A DNA stretch of 64,000 nt, taken from NCBI GenBank assembly GCA_036227345.1, contig CP109468.1:3720001-3784000 (forward strand). Direction: 5' to 3'. Under the pieces are notes generated by a model. That model saw only the letters and a program-made list of their open reading frames with translations. It ran no database searches and was not told the origin of the DNA. The position numbers and the translations under genes were made by a program. This document shows positions 49,712-53,606 of this stretch, piece by piece. The DNA comes from Streptomyces sp. NBC_01463 (GTDB lineage Bacteria > Actinomycetota > Actinomycetes > Streptomycetales > Streptomycetaceae). The number at the start of each line of letters is the position of its first letter. The stretch's first letter is position 1.

Positions 49712-49905
49712 TCTGGACGGGGCCCCGTTCCACAATCGTTGTCGAGGGCTTGTGCAGAGAGTCACCCACTGCTGACGCGCGCCCCGTTCACAAGGCAGAC
49801 TGTTGACGGCGATACCAACGGTATGGAGCAATCCGGATGGCCTCGAAGGAATCCGGACATGTGCCATCGTGCCGGGCAGCGCACAGAGCAGGACAGGAGA
49901 CAGCA

Positions 49906-52872
49906 ATGGGCCGTGCCGACGGACCACGGGTACGCGTTCCGGAGCAGCGCGTCCCGGAGCAGAGGTCGGTGGAGGAAGCCGGACTTCGTTTCTCCCTCCT
50001 CGGTCCGGTACGGGCCGGGCGGGGCGACGAGACGCTGCCGTGCGGCTCGCCGCAGCAGCGCGCCCTGCTGACGGCCCTGCTCCTGAGAGGCGGCCGCACA
50101 GCCACGGCCGCCGAACTCATCGACGCCATCTGGGGCGAGGACCCGCCCTCCCAGGCACTGGCCGCGGTACGCACCTACGCCTCGCGCCTGCGCAAGACCC
50201 TGGGCCCGCTGACCCTGGCGAGCGACTCCGGCGGATACGCGATGCGGATCGGGCCCGGGGCGCTCGACCTGACCGTGGCCCAGGACCGGGCGGCCGACGC
50301 GGAGAAGGCCAGGGCGTCGGGCGACCGCTGCGGGGCCAGGGCGCTGCTGAACGAGGCACTCGCCCTCTGGGACGGCGAGGCGCTGGCCTCCGTCCCCGGG
50401 CCGTACGCGGAGTACCAGCGGACCCGGCTGGAGGAGTGGCGGCTCCAGCTCACCGAGACCCGTCTCGATCTGGACCTGGAGGTCGGCTGCCACGCGGAGG
50501 CGGTCTCCGAACTGACCGCGCTCACCGCCGCGCACCCGCTGCGCGAACGGCTGCGCGAGCTCCTGATGGTGGCCCTGTACCGCAGCGGCCGCCAGGCGGA
50601 GGCCCTCGCCGTCTACGCCGACACCCGGCGGCTGCTCGCCGAGGAACTCGGCGTCGACCCGCGCCCCGAACTCGCCGCGCTCCAGCAGCGCATCCTGCGG
50701 GCCGACGAGGAGCTGGCCCGCCCGGCCGACGAACCCACGCCGGCCGCCGCACCGCTCCGCCCCGCGCAGCTCCCGGCCACGGTCTCCGACTTCACGGGCC
50801 GCAACTCCTTCGTCCGCGAACTGGGCGACCGCCTCGCCACCGCGGAGGGCTCGGTCATGGCCGTCTCCGCCCTCGCGGGCATCGGCGGCGTCGGCAAGAC
50901 GACCCTCGCCGTGCACGTCGCCCACCAGGCCCGCCCGCACTTCCCGGACGGCCAGCTCTACGTCGACCTCCAGGGCGCGGGCGCCCGCGCCGCCGAGCCG
51001 GAGACGGTCCTCGGCGCGTTCCTGCGCGCGCTGGGCACGGCGGACTCGGCGATCCCCGACTCCCTGGACGAACGCGCCGCGCTCTACCGCTCCACGCTCG
51101 ACGGCCGCCGCATCCTGGTCCTCCTGGACAACGCCCACGACGCGGCCCAGATCCGCCCGCTGCTCCCCGGCACGGCCGGCTGCGCGGCGCTGGTCACCAG
51201 CCGGGTCCGGATGGTCGACCTGGCGGGCGCGCACCTGGTCGACCTGGACGTGATGTCGCCCGAGGAGGCGCTCCAGCTCTTCACCCGGATCGTGGGCGAG
51301 GAGCGCATCAACTCCGAACGCGAGGCGGCGCTCGACGTGGTCGCCGCGTGCGGCTTCCTCCCGCTGGCCATCCGCATCGCGGCCTCCCGGCTGGCGGCCC
51401 GCCGCACCTGGACGGTCTCGGTCCTGGCCGCGAAGCTCGCGGACGAGCGCCGCCGGCTGGACGAGCTCCAGGCGGGCGACCTCGCGGTGAAGGCCACCTT
51501 CGAACTCGGCTACGGCCAGCTGGAACCGGCCCAGGCCCGCGCCTTCCGTCTGCTGGGCCTCGCCGACGGCCCGGACATCTCCCTGGCGGCTGCGGCGGCG
51601 CTGCTGAACCTGGAGGCGCACACGGCGGAGGACCTCCTGGAGGCCCTGGTCGACACGTCCCTCCTGGAGTCGGCGGCCCCGGGCCGCTACCGCTACCACG
51701 ACCTGGTCCGCCTCTACGCGCGTTCGTGCGCTGACCGGGACGAACAGCCGCCGGAGGAGAAGGAACTGGCGCTGTCGCGGCTGCTGGACTTCTATCTGGC
51801 GACGGCCGCGGGGGTCTACGCACTGGAGCGGCCGGGGGAGCGGGTCCTCGATCACTTCTCGTCCACGTCCTACCCGGGCCTTGCCTTCCGGGTCCGCGAG
51901 ACCGCCCTGGACTGGCTGTTCACGGAGTCCAGCGGACTGCTCGCCTGCGCCCGCCAGTCGGCCGCCATCGGCATGCCGCGGCGCGCATCCGACCTGCTGA
52001 TGGCGGTGGTCGACCTCGGTGAGTCGGGCGCGAACTCACACCAGTTCGCCACGGCCGCGACGGCCGTGGCCGAGGCCGCCGAGGCCGCGGGCGAGGCGCA
52101 GGCCGAGGCCAGGGCCCGCACCATGCTGTCCCACGTCCACAGCGTCTCGGGCCGGTTCACCGAGGCGGAGGCCGAAGCGATGAGGGCCCTGGGGCTCGGC
52201 GAACTGGCCGGCGACCCGGTCTCGCTGGGGCAGGCGCCCAACCAGCGCGGGATCATCGCGCTCTACGAGAACCGCCACGAGGACGCGGAGTCGCATCTCA
52301 CGCAGGCCATGACGGCCTTCCGCGCCGACGGCAACAAGCCCGGCGAGGCATCGGCGCTCTGCAACCTCTCGCGTGTGCACCTCGCGACGGACCGGACCCC
52401 GAGCGCCGTCCAGCTGGCACAGCGGGGCGTCGCGATCTACGAGGACGACACCACCGGTCTCGCGCTCCGGCTCGCGAACGGGAAGTACGCGCTCGGGCTC
52501 GCCCTCATCGGCAGCAGGCAGACCTCCCGGGCCCAGAACGTCCTGCTGGAGGCCCTGCACATCTTCCGCGAGAGCCGCCAGCGGCTGTGGCACGGGATGA
52601 CGCTCTTCCGGCTGGCCGAGCTGCACATGGCCGAACAGCAGGCGGCTCAGGCGGCGGCCCACGCCGAGCAGGCGCTGGCCGTGCTCCGTGGCATCGGCGG
52701 GGACTGGCGCAGGGCCAACGTGCTGACGGTGCTCGGTCAGGCACTGGCGGCCATCGGGCAGACGGACCGTGCGCAGGTCTGCTGGAACGAGGCTCTGACG
52801 ATCTTCGATACGCTCGGCTCCCCGGAGGCCGAATCGGTCCGTGCACTCGTCAACCCGACTGCCGTGGCCTGA
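49906..52872 (+). CDS. afsR: AfsR-type SARP regulator with NB-ARC and TPR domains
   Basis: A 988-residue pleiotropic regulator of secondary metabolism. Residues about 25-120 are the OmpR-like DNA-binding domain (LRFSLLGPVRAGRGDETLPC; PQQRALLTALLLRGGRTATA), followed by the BTAD domain to about 280 (GCHAEAVSELTALTAAHPLR), an NB-ARC ATPase with P-loop GIGGVGKTTLA near 325 and ILVLLDNAHDA as Walker B, and C-terminal TPR repeats from about 690. Length and domain order match S. coelicolor AfsR (993). ATG at 49906 has AGGAGA upstream and gives a VPEQR-containing N-terminus as I recall for AfsR. In the known system AfsK phosphorylates AfsR, which activates afsS; all three are in this window. Confidence 0.85.
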   Translation: MGRADGPRVRVPEQRVPEQRSVEEAGLRFSLLGPVRAGRGDETLPCGSPQQRALLTALLLRGGRTATAAELIDAIWGEDPPSQALAAVRTYASRLRKTLGPLTLASDSGGYAMRIGPGALDLTVAQDRAADAEKARASGDRCGARALLNEALALWDGEALASVPGPYAEYQRTRLEEWRLQLTETRLDLDLEVGCHAEAVSELTALTAAHPLRERLRELLMVALYRSGRQAEALAVYADTRRLLAEELGVDPRPELAALQQRILRADEELARPADEPTPAAAPLRPAQLPATVSDFTGRNSFVRELGDRLATAEGSVMAVSALAGIGGVGKTTLAVHVAHQARPHFPDGQLYVDLQGAGARAAEPETVLGAFLRALGTADSAIPDSLDERAALYRSTLDGRRILVLLDNAHDAAQIRPLLPGTAGCAALVTSRVRMVDLAGAHLVDLDVMSPEEALQLFTRIVGEERINSEREAALDVVAACGFLPLAIRIAASRLAARRTWTVSVLAAKLADERRRLDELQAGDLAVKATFELGYGQLEPAQARAFRLLGLADGPDISLAAAAALLNLEAHTAEDLLEALVDTSLLESAAPGRYRYHDLVRLYARSCADRDEQPPEEKELALSRLLDFYLATAAGVYALERPGERVLDHFSSTSYPGLAFRVRETALDWLFTESSGLLACARQSAAIGMPRRASDLLMAVVDLGESGANSHQFATAATAVAEAAEAAGEAQAEARARTMLSHVHSVSGRFTEAEAEAMRALGLGELAGDPVSLGQAPNQRGIIALYENRHEDAESHLTQAMTAFRADGNKPGEASALCNLSRVHLATDRTPSAVQLAQRGVAIYEDDTTGLALRLANGKYALGLALIGSRQTSRAQNVLLEALHIFRESRQRLWHGMTLFRLAELHMAEQQAAQAAAHAEQALAVLRGIGGDWRRANVLTVLGQALAAIGQTDRAQVCWNEALTIFDTLGSPEAESVRALVNPTAVA

Positions 52873-52883
52873 CCTTGTCGGGC

Positions 52884-52901
52884 GTTCATCAATCGTTTAT
52901 C
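52884..52901 (+). promoter_or_regulatory. SARP/AfsR heptamer repeats in the afsS promoter
   Basis: GTTCATC (52884-52890) and GTTTATC (52895-52901) are direct repeats exactly 11 bp apart, one helical turn, the spacing that SARP regulators recognise. They lie just after the afsR stop and about 170 bp before afsS. Established: AfsR binds near the afsS -35 region in S. coelicolor. That these are the contact bases is inferred. Confidence 0.6.
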
Positions 52902-53072
52902 GCGGCACGCCACTCTCTACTCATCGATCCGCCGCGTCGGGGGGCAGACGGATCGGCGTGCGGCCTCACCACTAAGGTGAACGGCCCTGGAAGGCCCGCC
53001 CGGCAGTCCACGGGGGAACAGCCGGGCGGGCCGGCCCAATCCATATGTCCACACTTTCAGGAGTTGACCTTC

Positions 53073-53246
53073 ATGGCCGCCAACAAGGACAGCCTCAAGC
53101 CGACCGACGCGCACGCGACGGGCGAGGAGATCACCACCCTGGACGCGCACGCCACGTCCGAGCCGGCCAAGCCCACCGACGCGCACGCCACGTCCGAGCC
53201 GGCCAAGCCGACCGACGCGCACGCCACGAGCGAGCCGGCCAACTAG
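53073..53246 (+). CDS. afsS: AfsS-like small repeat protein
   Basis: A 57-residue acidic protein made almost entirely of a 12-residue repeat: DAHAT at residues 12, 24, 36 and 48, mostly as KPTDAHATSEPA. No hydrophobic segment or signal peptide. AfsS of S. coelicolor (63 residues), often annotated as sigma-like protein, is a short repeat protein placed directly behind afsR; position, size and repeat character agree. AfsS activates pathway-specific antibiotic regulators by an unknown mechanism. AGGAG 9 bases upstream supports ATG 53073. A 13-bp hairpin follows. Confidence 0.8.
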   Translation: MAANKDSLKPTDAHATGEEITTLDAHATSEPAKPTDAHATSEPAKPTDAHATSEPAN

Positions 53247-53262
53247 TCCAACCTGCACGGGG

Positions 53263-53303
53263 AGCGGCCGCGGCGGCGCGGAGGGGGAGCCGTCGCGGCC
53301 GCT
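53263..53303 (+). terminator. Terminator of afsS-like gene
   Basis: AGCGGCCGCGGCG pairs with CGTCGCGGCCGCT (13 bp, one G-T) around a 15-base loop, 17 bases after the stop. Confidence 0.7.
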
Positions 53304-53438
53304 GCGTGTCCGGGCAGGGACGGCCCACGCGATCGCGTCAGCGTGGGGGCCGCTTCCCGCCAGGGGGTACCGCCGCCGCCGGTCCCGTCGCTAGCGTCAC
53401 TCCACGTCCGGAAGTTCGCTCCCATCGCAGGAGTTGAG

Positions 53439-53606
53439 ATGACTCGCACCAAGAAGACGCTCGTCGCCGCCGCGTTCGCCGTGGCCCTCGGCATCGGCGG
53501 CGCGTGTCCCGCCCTGGCCGACGCCCACGCGAGCGGCGACACCCCGGTCACGACTCAGGATGCCGACACCGGCGTGGCCACCCCGCAGGACGCGCACGCG
53601 AGCTGA
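53439..53606 (+). CDS. Small exported peptide with DAHAS motifs
   Basis: A 55-residue precursor. Residues 1-27 are a clear Sec signal peptide (TKKTLVAAAFAVALGIGG; cleavage after PALA), leaving a 28-residue acidic peptide that begins DAHAS and ends QDAHAS, with TTQDADT between. The DAHA(S/T) element is the same as in the AfsS-like protein 190 bp upstream, so the two are probably related, one cytoplasmic and one secreted. CAGGAGTTGAG precedes ATG 53439, nearly the same leader as before the afsS-like gene (CAGGAGTTGACC). TAGCGT at about 53391 could be a -10 box. Function unknown; a signal or structural peptide is possible. Confidence 0.7.
   Translation: MTRTKKTLVAAAFAVALGIGGACPALADAHASGDTPVTTQDADTGVATPQDAHAS

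Follow-up and report, generated by a model that had tools for sequence, protein, structure and literature searches.

An exported AfsS relative in Streptomyces and a pentapeptide word that co-varies with the AfsR sensor

AfsR and AfsS form a global regulatory pair of Streptomyces, and passages of PMC10936776, PMC10972967 and PMC2267785 call unknown how AfsS works and whether the AfsR sensor has a ligand. Among regulators with comparable sensor domains, RRNPP receptors are 250–500 residues long according to part of PMC10075063, and MalT senses maltotriose, as stated in a passage of PMC10936776. Here we analyze a 64,000-nucleotide stretch of Streptomyces sp. NBC_01463 (contig CP109468.1; hereafter the window; host genome 9.07 Mb), which contains the same AfsR–AfsS locus, with an AfsR equivalog, an afs box and AfsS repeats, followed by a gene for a small exported AfsS relative. 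In the AfsR–AfsS literature covered (titles, abstract openings and passages of the three papers named first), neither an exported twin nor a word matched to the sensor is described, and DAHAT as a literature term gave, among the matches listed, unrelated words.

The AfsR of the window scores 1779.9 bits against NCBIfam NF053617 (cut-off 1430) and matches the AfsR structures PDB 8k60 and 8jke at E=0. The protein encoded directly downstream is small, repeats a short motif and is AfsS by position and repeats; it scores 20.2 bits against NCBIfam NF053616, under the cut-off of 60, and that model seems too narrow for it. As a preliminary description of the window had noticed, this 57-residue protein carries DAHAT every 12 residues (from residues 12, 24, 36 and 48), and a 55-residue precursor is encoded close by, the interval from the afsS stop to the ATG of the exported gene being 192 nt (190 bp had been given). 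The precursor reads ...CPALA, then DAHAS...DAHAS, with a 28-residue mature part by the AxA rule. A third, degenerate copy in mid-peptide (DADTG) had been overlooked; the closest homologue, P0003, has DAHAS there. Furthermore, the motif appears to be a strain-specific word matched to AfsR, and in most cases the exported word departs from that of AfsS by a single residue, which also goes beyond that description.

The AfsS word and the AfsR sensor

Across 252 AfsS proteins, the motif has the form [DEN]-x-H-x-[TSPG] and first occurs 7–32 residues after the Met. The commonest word per protein takes 63 forms over this set, and all regular-expression matches within a protein are alike in 234 of the 252, about half of the 18 exceptions being overlapping reads (for example, DHHAP). 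The expression also reads DHHAP-type words as GDHHA, and one of the 153 genomes used below for co-variation has such a shifted word. Among AfsS with two equal copies, a requirement that was not imposed on the set of 252, copy pairs are identical in 96.4% within a protein (1069 pairs) versus 2.8% between proteins. Only 31% of the 1031 copy pairs with identical amino acids are identical in DNA, and codon identity at motif positions 4 and 5 is 0.67 and 0.53, where independent draws give 0.60 and 0.47. The copies are kept alike by amino-acid selection more than by recent DNA copying. Gene conversion as the sole cause of the concordance was rejected: the silent codons speak against it, though identity slightly exceeds that of independent draws.

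The AfsS word co-varies with the C-terminal arm/TPR region of AfsR, residues 691–1011, which AlphaFold predicts to be a helical superhelix with a mean predicted local distance difference test score of 93.1. Residues are counted from the ATG at 49837; the true start may be at 49906, because the NF053617 match begins near residue 24. We computed mutual information between motif positions and AfsR columns over 62 AfsR lineages of less than 90% identity. Position 2 peaks at residue 803 (z 18.5), followed by 725, 769, 766 and 799; position 4 peaks at 809 (z 9.0); and position 5 peaks at 921 (z 19.7), with 947 and 961 also high, so that the top columns for these three positions all lie within 691–1011. 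Position 1 varies little in these lineages, and 878 is absent from its top list there; in 93 C-terminus lineages, 878 is the top column (z 22.6). Columns above z 4 for positions 2, 4 and 5 make up 45%, 7% and 31% of AfsR 716–1011, versus at most 5% in the SARP and NOD domains.

The pairs are specific in many cases. In the 153 genomes, Asn at position 2 goes with Asp803 (53/53), Ser with Glu803 (24/27), Gly with Glu803 (9/9) and Met with Ala803 (8/8), the pairing being looser for Thr, Ala and Asp. Ala at position 4 goes with Leu, Ile or Phe at 809 (98/98) and Met with Gly, Val or Asn (21/23), while Thr, Ser and Pro at position 5 go with Met921 (84/89), Val921 (25/30) and Thr921 (16/26), respectively, and Ser also with Ile947 (28/30). 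In addition, Thr or Ser at position 5 is accompanied by Arg958 (119/119) and Pro by Met, Trp, Ile or Thr at 958 (25/26); at position 1, Asp and Glu are accompanied by Arg878 (126/126 and 8/8) and Asn by Lys878 (16/18).

An unlikely alternative is that this association reflects co-inheritance of neighboring DNA, the 3' end of afsR together with afsS, rather than recognition, in which case the exported gene would be uninformative about AfsR. In its favor, the whole C-terminal region differs more where the motif differs (0.44 versus 0.17 of variable columns), and the motif can be predicted equally well from overall likeness of the C-terminus and from the chosen residues. Position 2 was predicted in 97 of 106 genomes by four residues, in 95 by the nearest relative in the C-terminus and in 13 by the nearest relative in SARP–NOD; therefore, AfsS goes with the sensor half of AfsR, not with the rest. 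At positions 1 and 5, C-terminal similarity slightly beats the chosen residues (105 versus 102 and 101 versus 98). All candidate columns were picked and tested on the same genomes.

By contrast, silent fourfold sites of 716–1011 have a mean z of 0.2–0.3 and a maximum of 3.3 (41 sites, limited to those with conserved Ala, Gly, Pro, Thr or Val). Because silent sites carry no signal, linkage to the adjacent afsS is not a simple cause of the co-variation. Two further points speak against co-inheritance. The leading AfsR columns are particular to each motif position, and the residue pairs make chemical sense. In addition, co-changes recur on a tree from which the candidate columns were excluded: 878 with position 1 (3/3, p 2.6e-5), 803 with position 2 (10/25, p 2.3e-5), 809 and 817 with position 4 (12/32, p 8e-7; 5/8, p 1.5e-4), and 921 and 961 with position 5 (p 2e-3 and 5e-3). 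These co-changes are mostly position-specific. Among relatives of at least 90% identity in SARP–NOD, residue 803 differs in 97% of the 499 pairs with differing position 2 and in 12% of the 151 pairs with the same position 2. Pairs whose words differ at one position number 0 to 16 per position at 80% or more TPR identity, where position 5 alone stands out. At 70%, the signal is clear for positions 2 and 5, weak for position 4 (809 differs in 0.47 versus 0.22) and not seen for position 1.

Several observations qualify these results. Very old co-inheritance could have saturated the silent sites. On the tree, 799, 766 and 769 track positions 2 and 4 equally, 958 tracks positions 4 and 5 equally (p 0.009 and 0.014), weaker links off the diagonal also exist for 803 and 809 (p 0.007–0.012), and 951 and 947 have no significant co-change link. 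The identity of the contact residues is thus less certain than the association of AfsS with the sensor half.

Across loci L033–L142 and the window, compared over AfsR 716–1005, SARP–NOD can keep an identity above 90% where the type has changed jointly in the TPR half and in AfsS. From these comparisons, the TPR half plus AfsS looks like a swappable specificity module.

The exported gene and its word

A protein search with the exported precursor returned 31 homologues in addition to the cluster that holds the query. All of them have an N-terminus resembling a signal peptide and, behind it, xxH motifs, and all named organisms are Streptomyces. Because of these homologues the exported gene is not a chance reading frame; judged by homology, it is a genuine family, whose members retain both the motif and the signal peptide, the lack of either in homologues being what the preliminary description had named as refuting. 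Profile A1, searched in 392 Streptomyces genomes at an E threshold of 1e-3, matched in 71, many matches being AfsS or bare signal peptides. Of 30 loci fetched from these matches, 25 are exported-type, and 23 of the 25 lie just downstream of AfsR, so the proposed tie between an exported AfsS relative and a regulator of secondary metabolism recurs; the other two, L018 and L026, have no AfsR in their 1.5-kb flanks and look unrelated. Matches to profile A3 came to be mostly generic signal peptides (at E 0.01, in 294 of 392 genomes), and the counts therefore rest on AfsR-anchored scanning.

AfsR was detected in 388 of the 392 sampled genomes, many of which have a second AfsR-like match at E < 1e-200. 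The AfsR-anchored set of 230 loci (80 kept of 212, 149 of the listed best-scoring AfsRs and the window) has AfsS in 217 and the exported gene, with at least two copies, in at least 19, a lower bound as region ends are missing at some loci. Adding loci reached via the exported gene itself brought the exported genes to 53, spread over 52 of 286 genomes or loci, a pool that joins the L033–L112 contigs and the genome set without a cross-check for shared species. L046 is cut off by a contig end. A second draw of 330 genomes from the genus added one locus (L347), the other matches listed being already in the set. Occurrence of the exported gene in other genera of the family was rejected on a best match outside Streptomyces of 3.1e-7, these weak matches remaining uninspected.

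Signal peptides were called by the AxA rule, and cleavage sites are predicted. In an alignment of 32 chosen members, M1, A25, A27 and H30 are invariant (the His of L079 aligns only via a gap), the last three being the signal-peptidase AxA and the His at +3. The motif directly follows AxA in 45 of the 53 exported relatives and is exactly C-terminal in 28 of 53, versus 0 of 252 AfsS; the exported protein thus departs from AfsS in its signal-peptide-like N-terminus and its C-terminal motif. A lipoprotein was also considered and rejected: Cys 23 occurs only in the window strain among 31 aligned, and most relatives have Ser or Thr nearby.

Variants of the gene were encountered at several loci. At L093, a tandem of two exported-type genes lies downstream of AfsR at distances of 641 and 1054 nt, the second with Cys residues on either side of its first motif (SACDNHMTCG). 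L310 (G081 C468) encodes on the minus strand, at about 1447–1650, a second exported DxHxx-like precursor without AfsR in the 1.5-kb flanks, beside DNA-glycosylase-like and helicase-like frames (named from their translations only). L047 and L064 have broken remnants of the exported gene downstream of afsS, which suggests that the gene was lost repeatedly.

The exported word stays close to the AfsS word and never equals it. We compared 48 of the 53 exported genes with their AfsS, dropping five without an AfsS call (G090, G348, G349, G366 and G390) and entering five AfsS words by hand (G064, G137, G191, G194 and G306). Over the four variable positions, the exported copy nearest to the AfsS word has one mismatch in 40 pairs, two in 4, three in 4 and none in 0, where shuffling within P-ending and other classes expects 16, 21, 9 and 1, respectively. 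Counted by lineage, 30 of 36 are one-off; so are 34 of the 48 first exported copies and 94 of all 155 copies, with no identical copy in either count. The single change falls at position 4 (21) or 2 (17), with one case each at positions 1 and 5, and the window pair is the position-5 case (T to S). Independent mismatches would give about 9 identical pairs (P of none 6e-5). Against this, re-pairing expects about one identical pair, and zero identity alone is not significant (P 0.31); the odd feature is zero identity combined with close tracking of the AfsS word. Where the words differ, AfsR fits AfsS better (position 2, 17/25; position 4, 23/29; position 5, 5/5), and 6 of the 8 contrary cases at position 2 set Gly in AfsS or the exported word against another residue. 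AfsR residues co-vary with AfsS, and the exported word tracks AfsS one step away.

Two other functions can be set against these data. A peptide that jams competitors, its word being the cognate word of their AfsR, is very unlikely: 42% of 60 one-off exported words do equal the AfsS word of another strain, but drawing the new residue from AfsS usage at large already predicts the same 42%, and in the absence of enrichment this candidate was rejected. The N-terminus of human serum albumin, DAHK, is an amino-terminal Cu(II)- and Ni(II)-binding (ATCUN) sequence, and after predicted cleavage the exported peptide likewise begins Asp-Ala-His. ATCUN is defined as Xaa-Zaa-His with Zaa not Pro at the opening of the abstract of PMC12929937, and the 45 relatives with His at the predicted +3 directly after AxA have no Pro at +2, as expected of a peptide that binds Cu(II) or Ni(II) outside the cell. 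Such a role has little probability, however; it leaves unexplained the dependence of positions 2, 4 and 5 on AfsS and AfsR, the internal and C-terminal copies matched to AfsR, which ATCUN peptides do not have, and the fact that the word is never that of AfsS. Moreover, G194, G247 and G159 have lost the first copy or carry it in altered form.

Upstream elements, selection and layout

The afs box pattern is quoted as CGTT(T/C)ATCGNN in a passage of PMC10972967. CGTT[TC]ATC lies within 260 nt upstream of 241 of 252 AfsS; an afs box before the exported gene was rejected, the same string lying within 170 nt of 0 of 53. The leader that the preliminary description saw as common to both genes, CAGGAGTTGA, does precede both but is mostly a Shine–Dalgarno sequence, and the 10-mer stands no more than 25 nt from the start in 20 of 252 AfsS and 5 of 53 exported relatives.

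Upstream sequences of five of six named species were aligned, with L038 left out. In these, TAGCGTCAC, including TAGCGT, is identical in 5/5; a scan for the sigma-70 consensus upstream of the exported gene found no promoter. A 34-nt stretch of the stem behind afsS is also identical across the five, and the 91 nt around the stem fold at −52.9 kcal/mol (z −1.66; 12 of 200 shuffles equally stable), a stability ordinary for its composition. A palindrome, ACGCGATCGCGT, lies at 53327–53338 between this stem and the exported gene; its ATCGCGT (in ATCGCGTCA) is identical in the five species, and it is a possible operator.

Codons 2–27 of the exported gene have fewer nonsynonymous (dN) than synonymous (dS) substitutions in 10/10 pairs (dN 0.00–0.17, dS 0.22–0.53). 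In the mature part, dN is below dS in 5/6 pairs and equal in one (dN 0.16–0.34, dS 0.16–0.89), and constraint there is therefore weaker than on the signal peptide. The gene might be a by-product of lineage history, a drifting afsS duplicate that acquired a signal peptide and has no outside function. Its patchy occurrence (19/230), the remnants in L047 and L064, the poor concordance of exported copies (pair identity 0.33, 181 pairs) and these mature-part rates point that way. The −10-like element and leader conserved in five species, the constraint on the signal peptide, the fixed AxA register and the one-off rule argue against it, and we consider the by-product rather improbable.

Table 1. Features of the afsR–afsS locus and the exported gene, in window coordinates
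Feature	Position	Strand	Basis
afsR: SARP – NOD (NB-ARC) – arm/TPR regulator	49837..52872	+	NCBIfam NF053617, BTAD, NB-ARC, TPR domains
AfsR residues 691-1011, arm/TPR sensor region, proposed pentapeptide reader	51907..52869	+	AlphaFold, co-variation
AfsR codon 803 (Gln), pairs with motif position 2	52243..52245	+	co-variation
AfsR codon 809 (Leu), pairs with motif position 4	52261..52263	+	co-variation
AfsR codon 878 (Arg), pairs with motif position 1	52468..52470	+	co-variation
AfsR codon 921 (Met), pairs with motif position 5	52597..52599	+	co-variation
AfsR codon 958 (Arg), pairs with motif position 5	52708..52710	+	co-variation
afs box CGTTCATCAAT CGTTTATCGCG, directly 3' of afsR stop	52883..52904	+	likeness to CGTT(T/C)ATCGNN
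afsS, 57 residues, without export signal, four DAHAT copies, proposed internal AfsR ligand	53073..53246	+	
AfsS motif copy 1, DAHAT	53106..53120	+	
AfsS motif copy 2, DAHAT	53142..53156	+	
AfsS motif copy 3, DAHAT	53178..53192	+	
AfsS motif copy 4, DAHAT	53214..53228	+	
15-bp stem, 11-nt loop, possible afsS terminator	53263..53303	+	fold, conservation
TAGCGT, conserved −10-like element of exported gene	53392..53397	+	alignment of 5 species
Exported AfsS relative, 55-residue precursor gene	53439..53606	+	
Sec-type signal peptide, residues 1-27, predicted cleavage between ALA and D	53439..53519	+	AxA rule
Exported motif copy 1, DAHAS, predicted mature N-terminus	53520..53534	+	
Degenerate middle copy, DADTG	53559..53573	+	homologue P0003: DAHAS here
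Exported C-terminal motif copy, DAHAS	53589..53603	+	

A proposed peptide-ligand system and its relation to known systems

At the level of sequence, we regard the exported family, its location, the co-variation of the word with AfsR and the one-off rule as established. The ligand so far missing for the AfsR sensor is probably AfsS, and the co-variation makes it very probable that AfsR binds the AfsS words directly. AfsR turns on afsS, and we propose that a pocket in its arm/TPR sensor reads the pentapeptide word. AfsS, a cytosolic protein that repeats the word of its strain from two to about eight times, would bind this pocket as a feedback ligand. In a minority of Streptomyces, the extra gene would supply a Sec-exported precursor whose word is near-cognate, in most cases with a single residue changed, and stands at the mature N-terminus and often also at the extreme C-terminus. 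Its export and processing are predicted from the signal peptide. Once cleaved, the peptide would target the AfsR sensor, either adding an accessory signal or competing with AfsS, with either sign conceivable, and we give even odds to its acting through AfsR at all. The simplest route would be re-import, as in Rap–Phr or NprR systems, which we consider somewhat doubtful. The mismatch might keep the precursor off AfsR before export, or might yield a weaker or antagonistic ligand.

Taken as a whole, the locus could about equally well be, or not be, an AfsR-based peptide-ligand system with internal AfsS and an accessory exported near-cognate ligand. Its specific form as a Rap–Phr-like code on AfsR, with the AfsS word inside and a one-off secreted pheromone or antagonist insulated before export, is put forward tentatively. 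The interpretation in the preliminary description is partly supported: an extracellular signal is backed only indirectly, by a motif family that co-evolves with the AfsR sensor and by the likeness of the AfsR TPR fold to pheromone receptors, and the peptide may be a decoy. The co-variation names residues on both partners, and the prediction can be addressed with synthetic pentapeptides and single AfsR swaps. With AfsR in nearly every genome sampled, a word that tunes AfsR could offer a general way to reach silent antibiotic clusters. In the exported twin, a STAND regulator outside Bacillota would have a peptide signal linked to it.

Among described systems, the RRNPP/RRNPPA pairs (Rap–Phr, NprR–NprX, PlcR–PapR and AimR–AimP) come closest, and the best reading of the AfsR TPR sensor is a Rap/NprR-like peptide receptor. 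AfsR shares the TPR receptor fold with them, a fold common in itself, and a small gene for a Sec-exported propeptide lies near the receptor gene, in the window with afsS in between. However, AfsR is a SARP–STAND protein of about 1000 residues, outside the RRNPP size range, the window locus adds a cytosolic multi-copy ligand, AfsS, whose word is not the exported word, and the system is found in Actinomycetota, with import only presumed. MalT and other STAND regulators with ligand-sensing superhelical domains are also among the closest systems, AfsR differing from MalT in that the ligand proposed here is a peptide.
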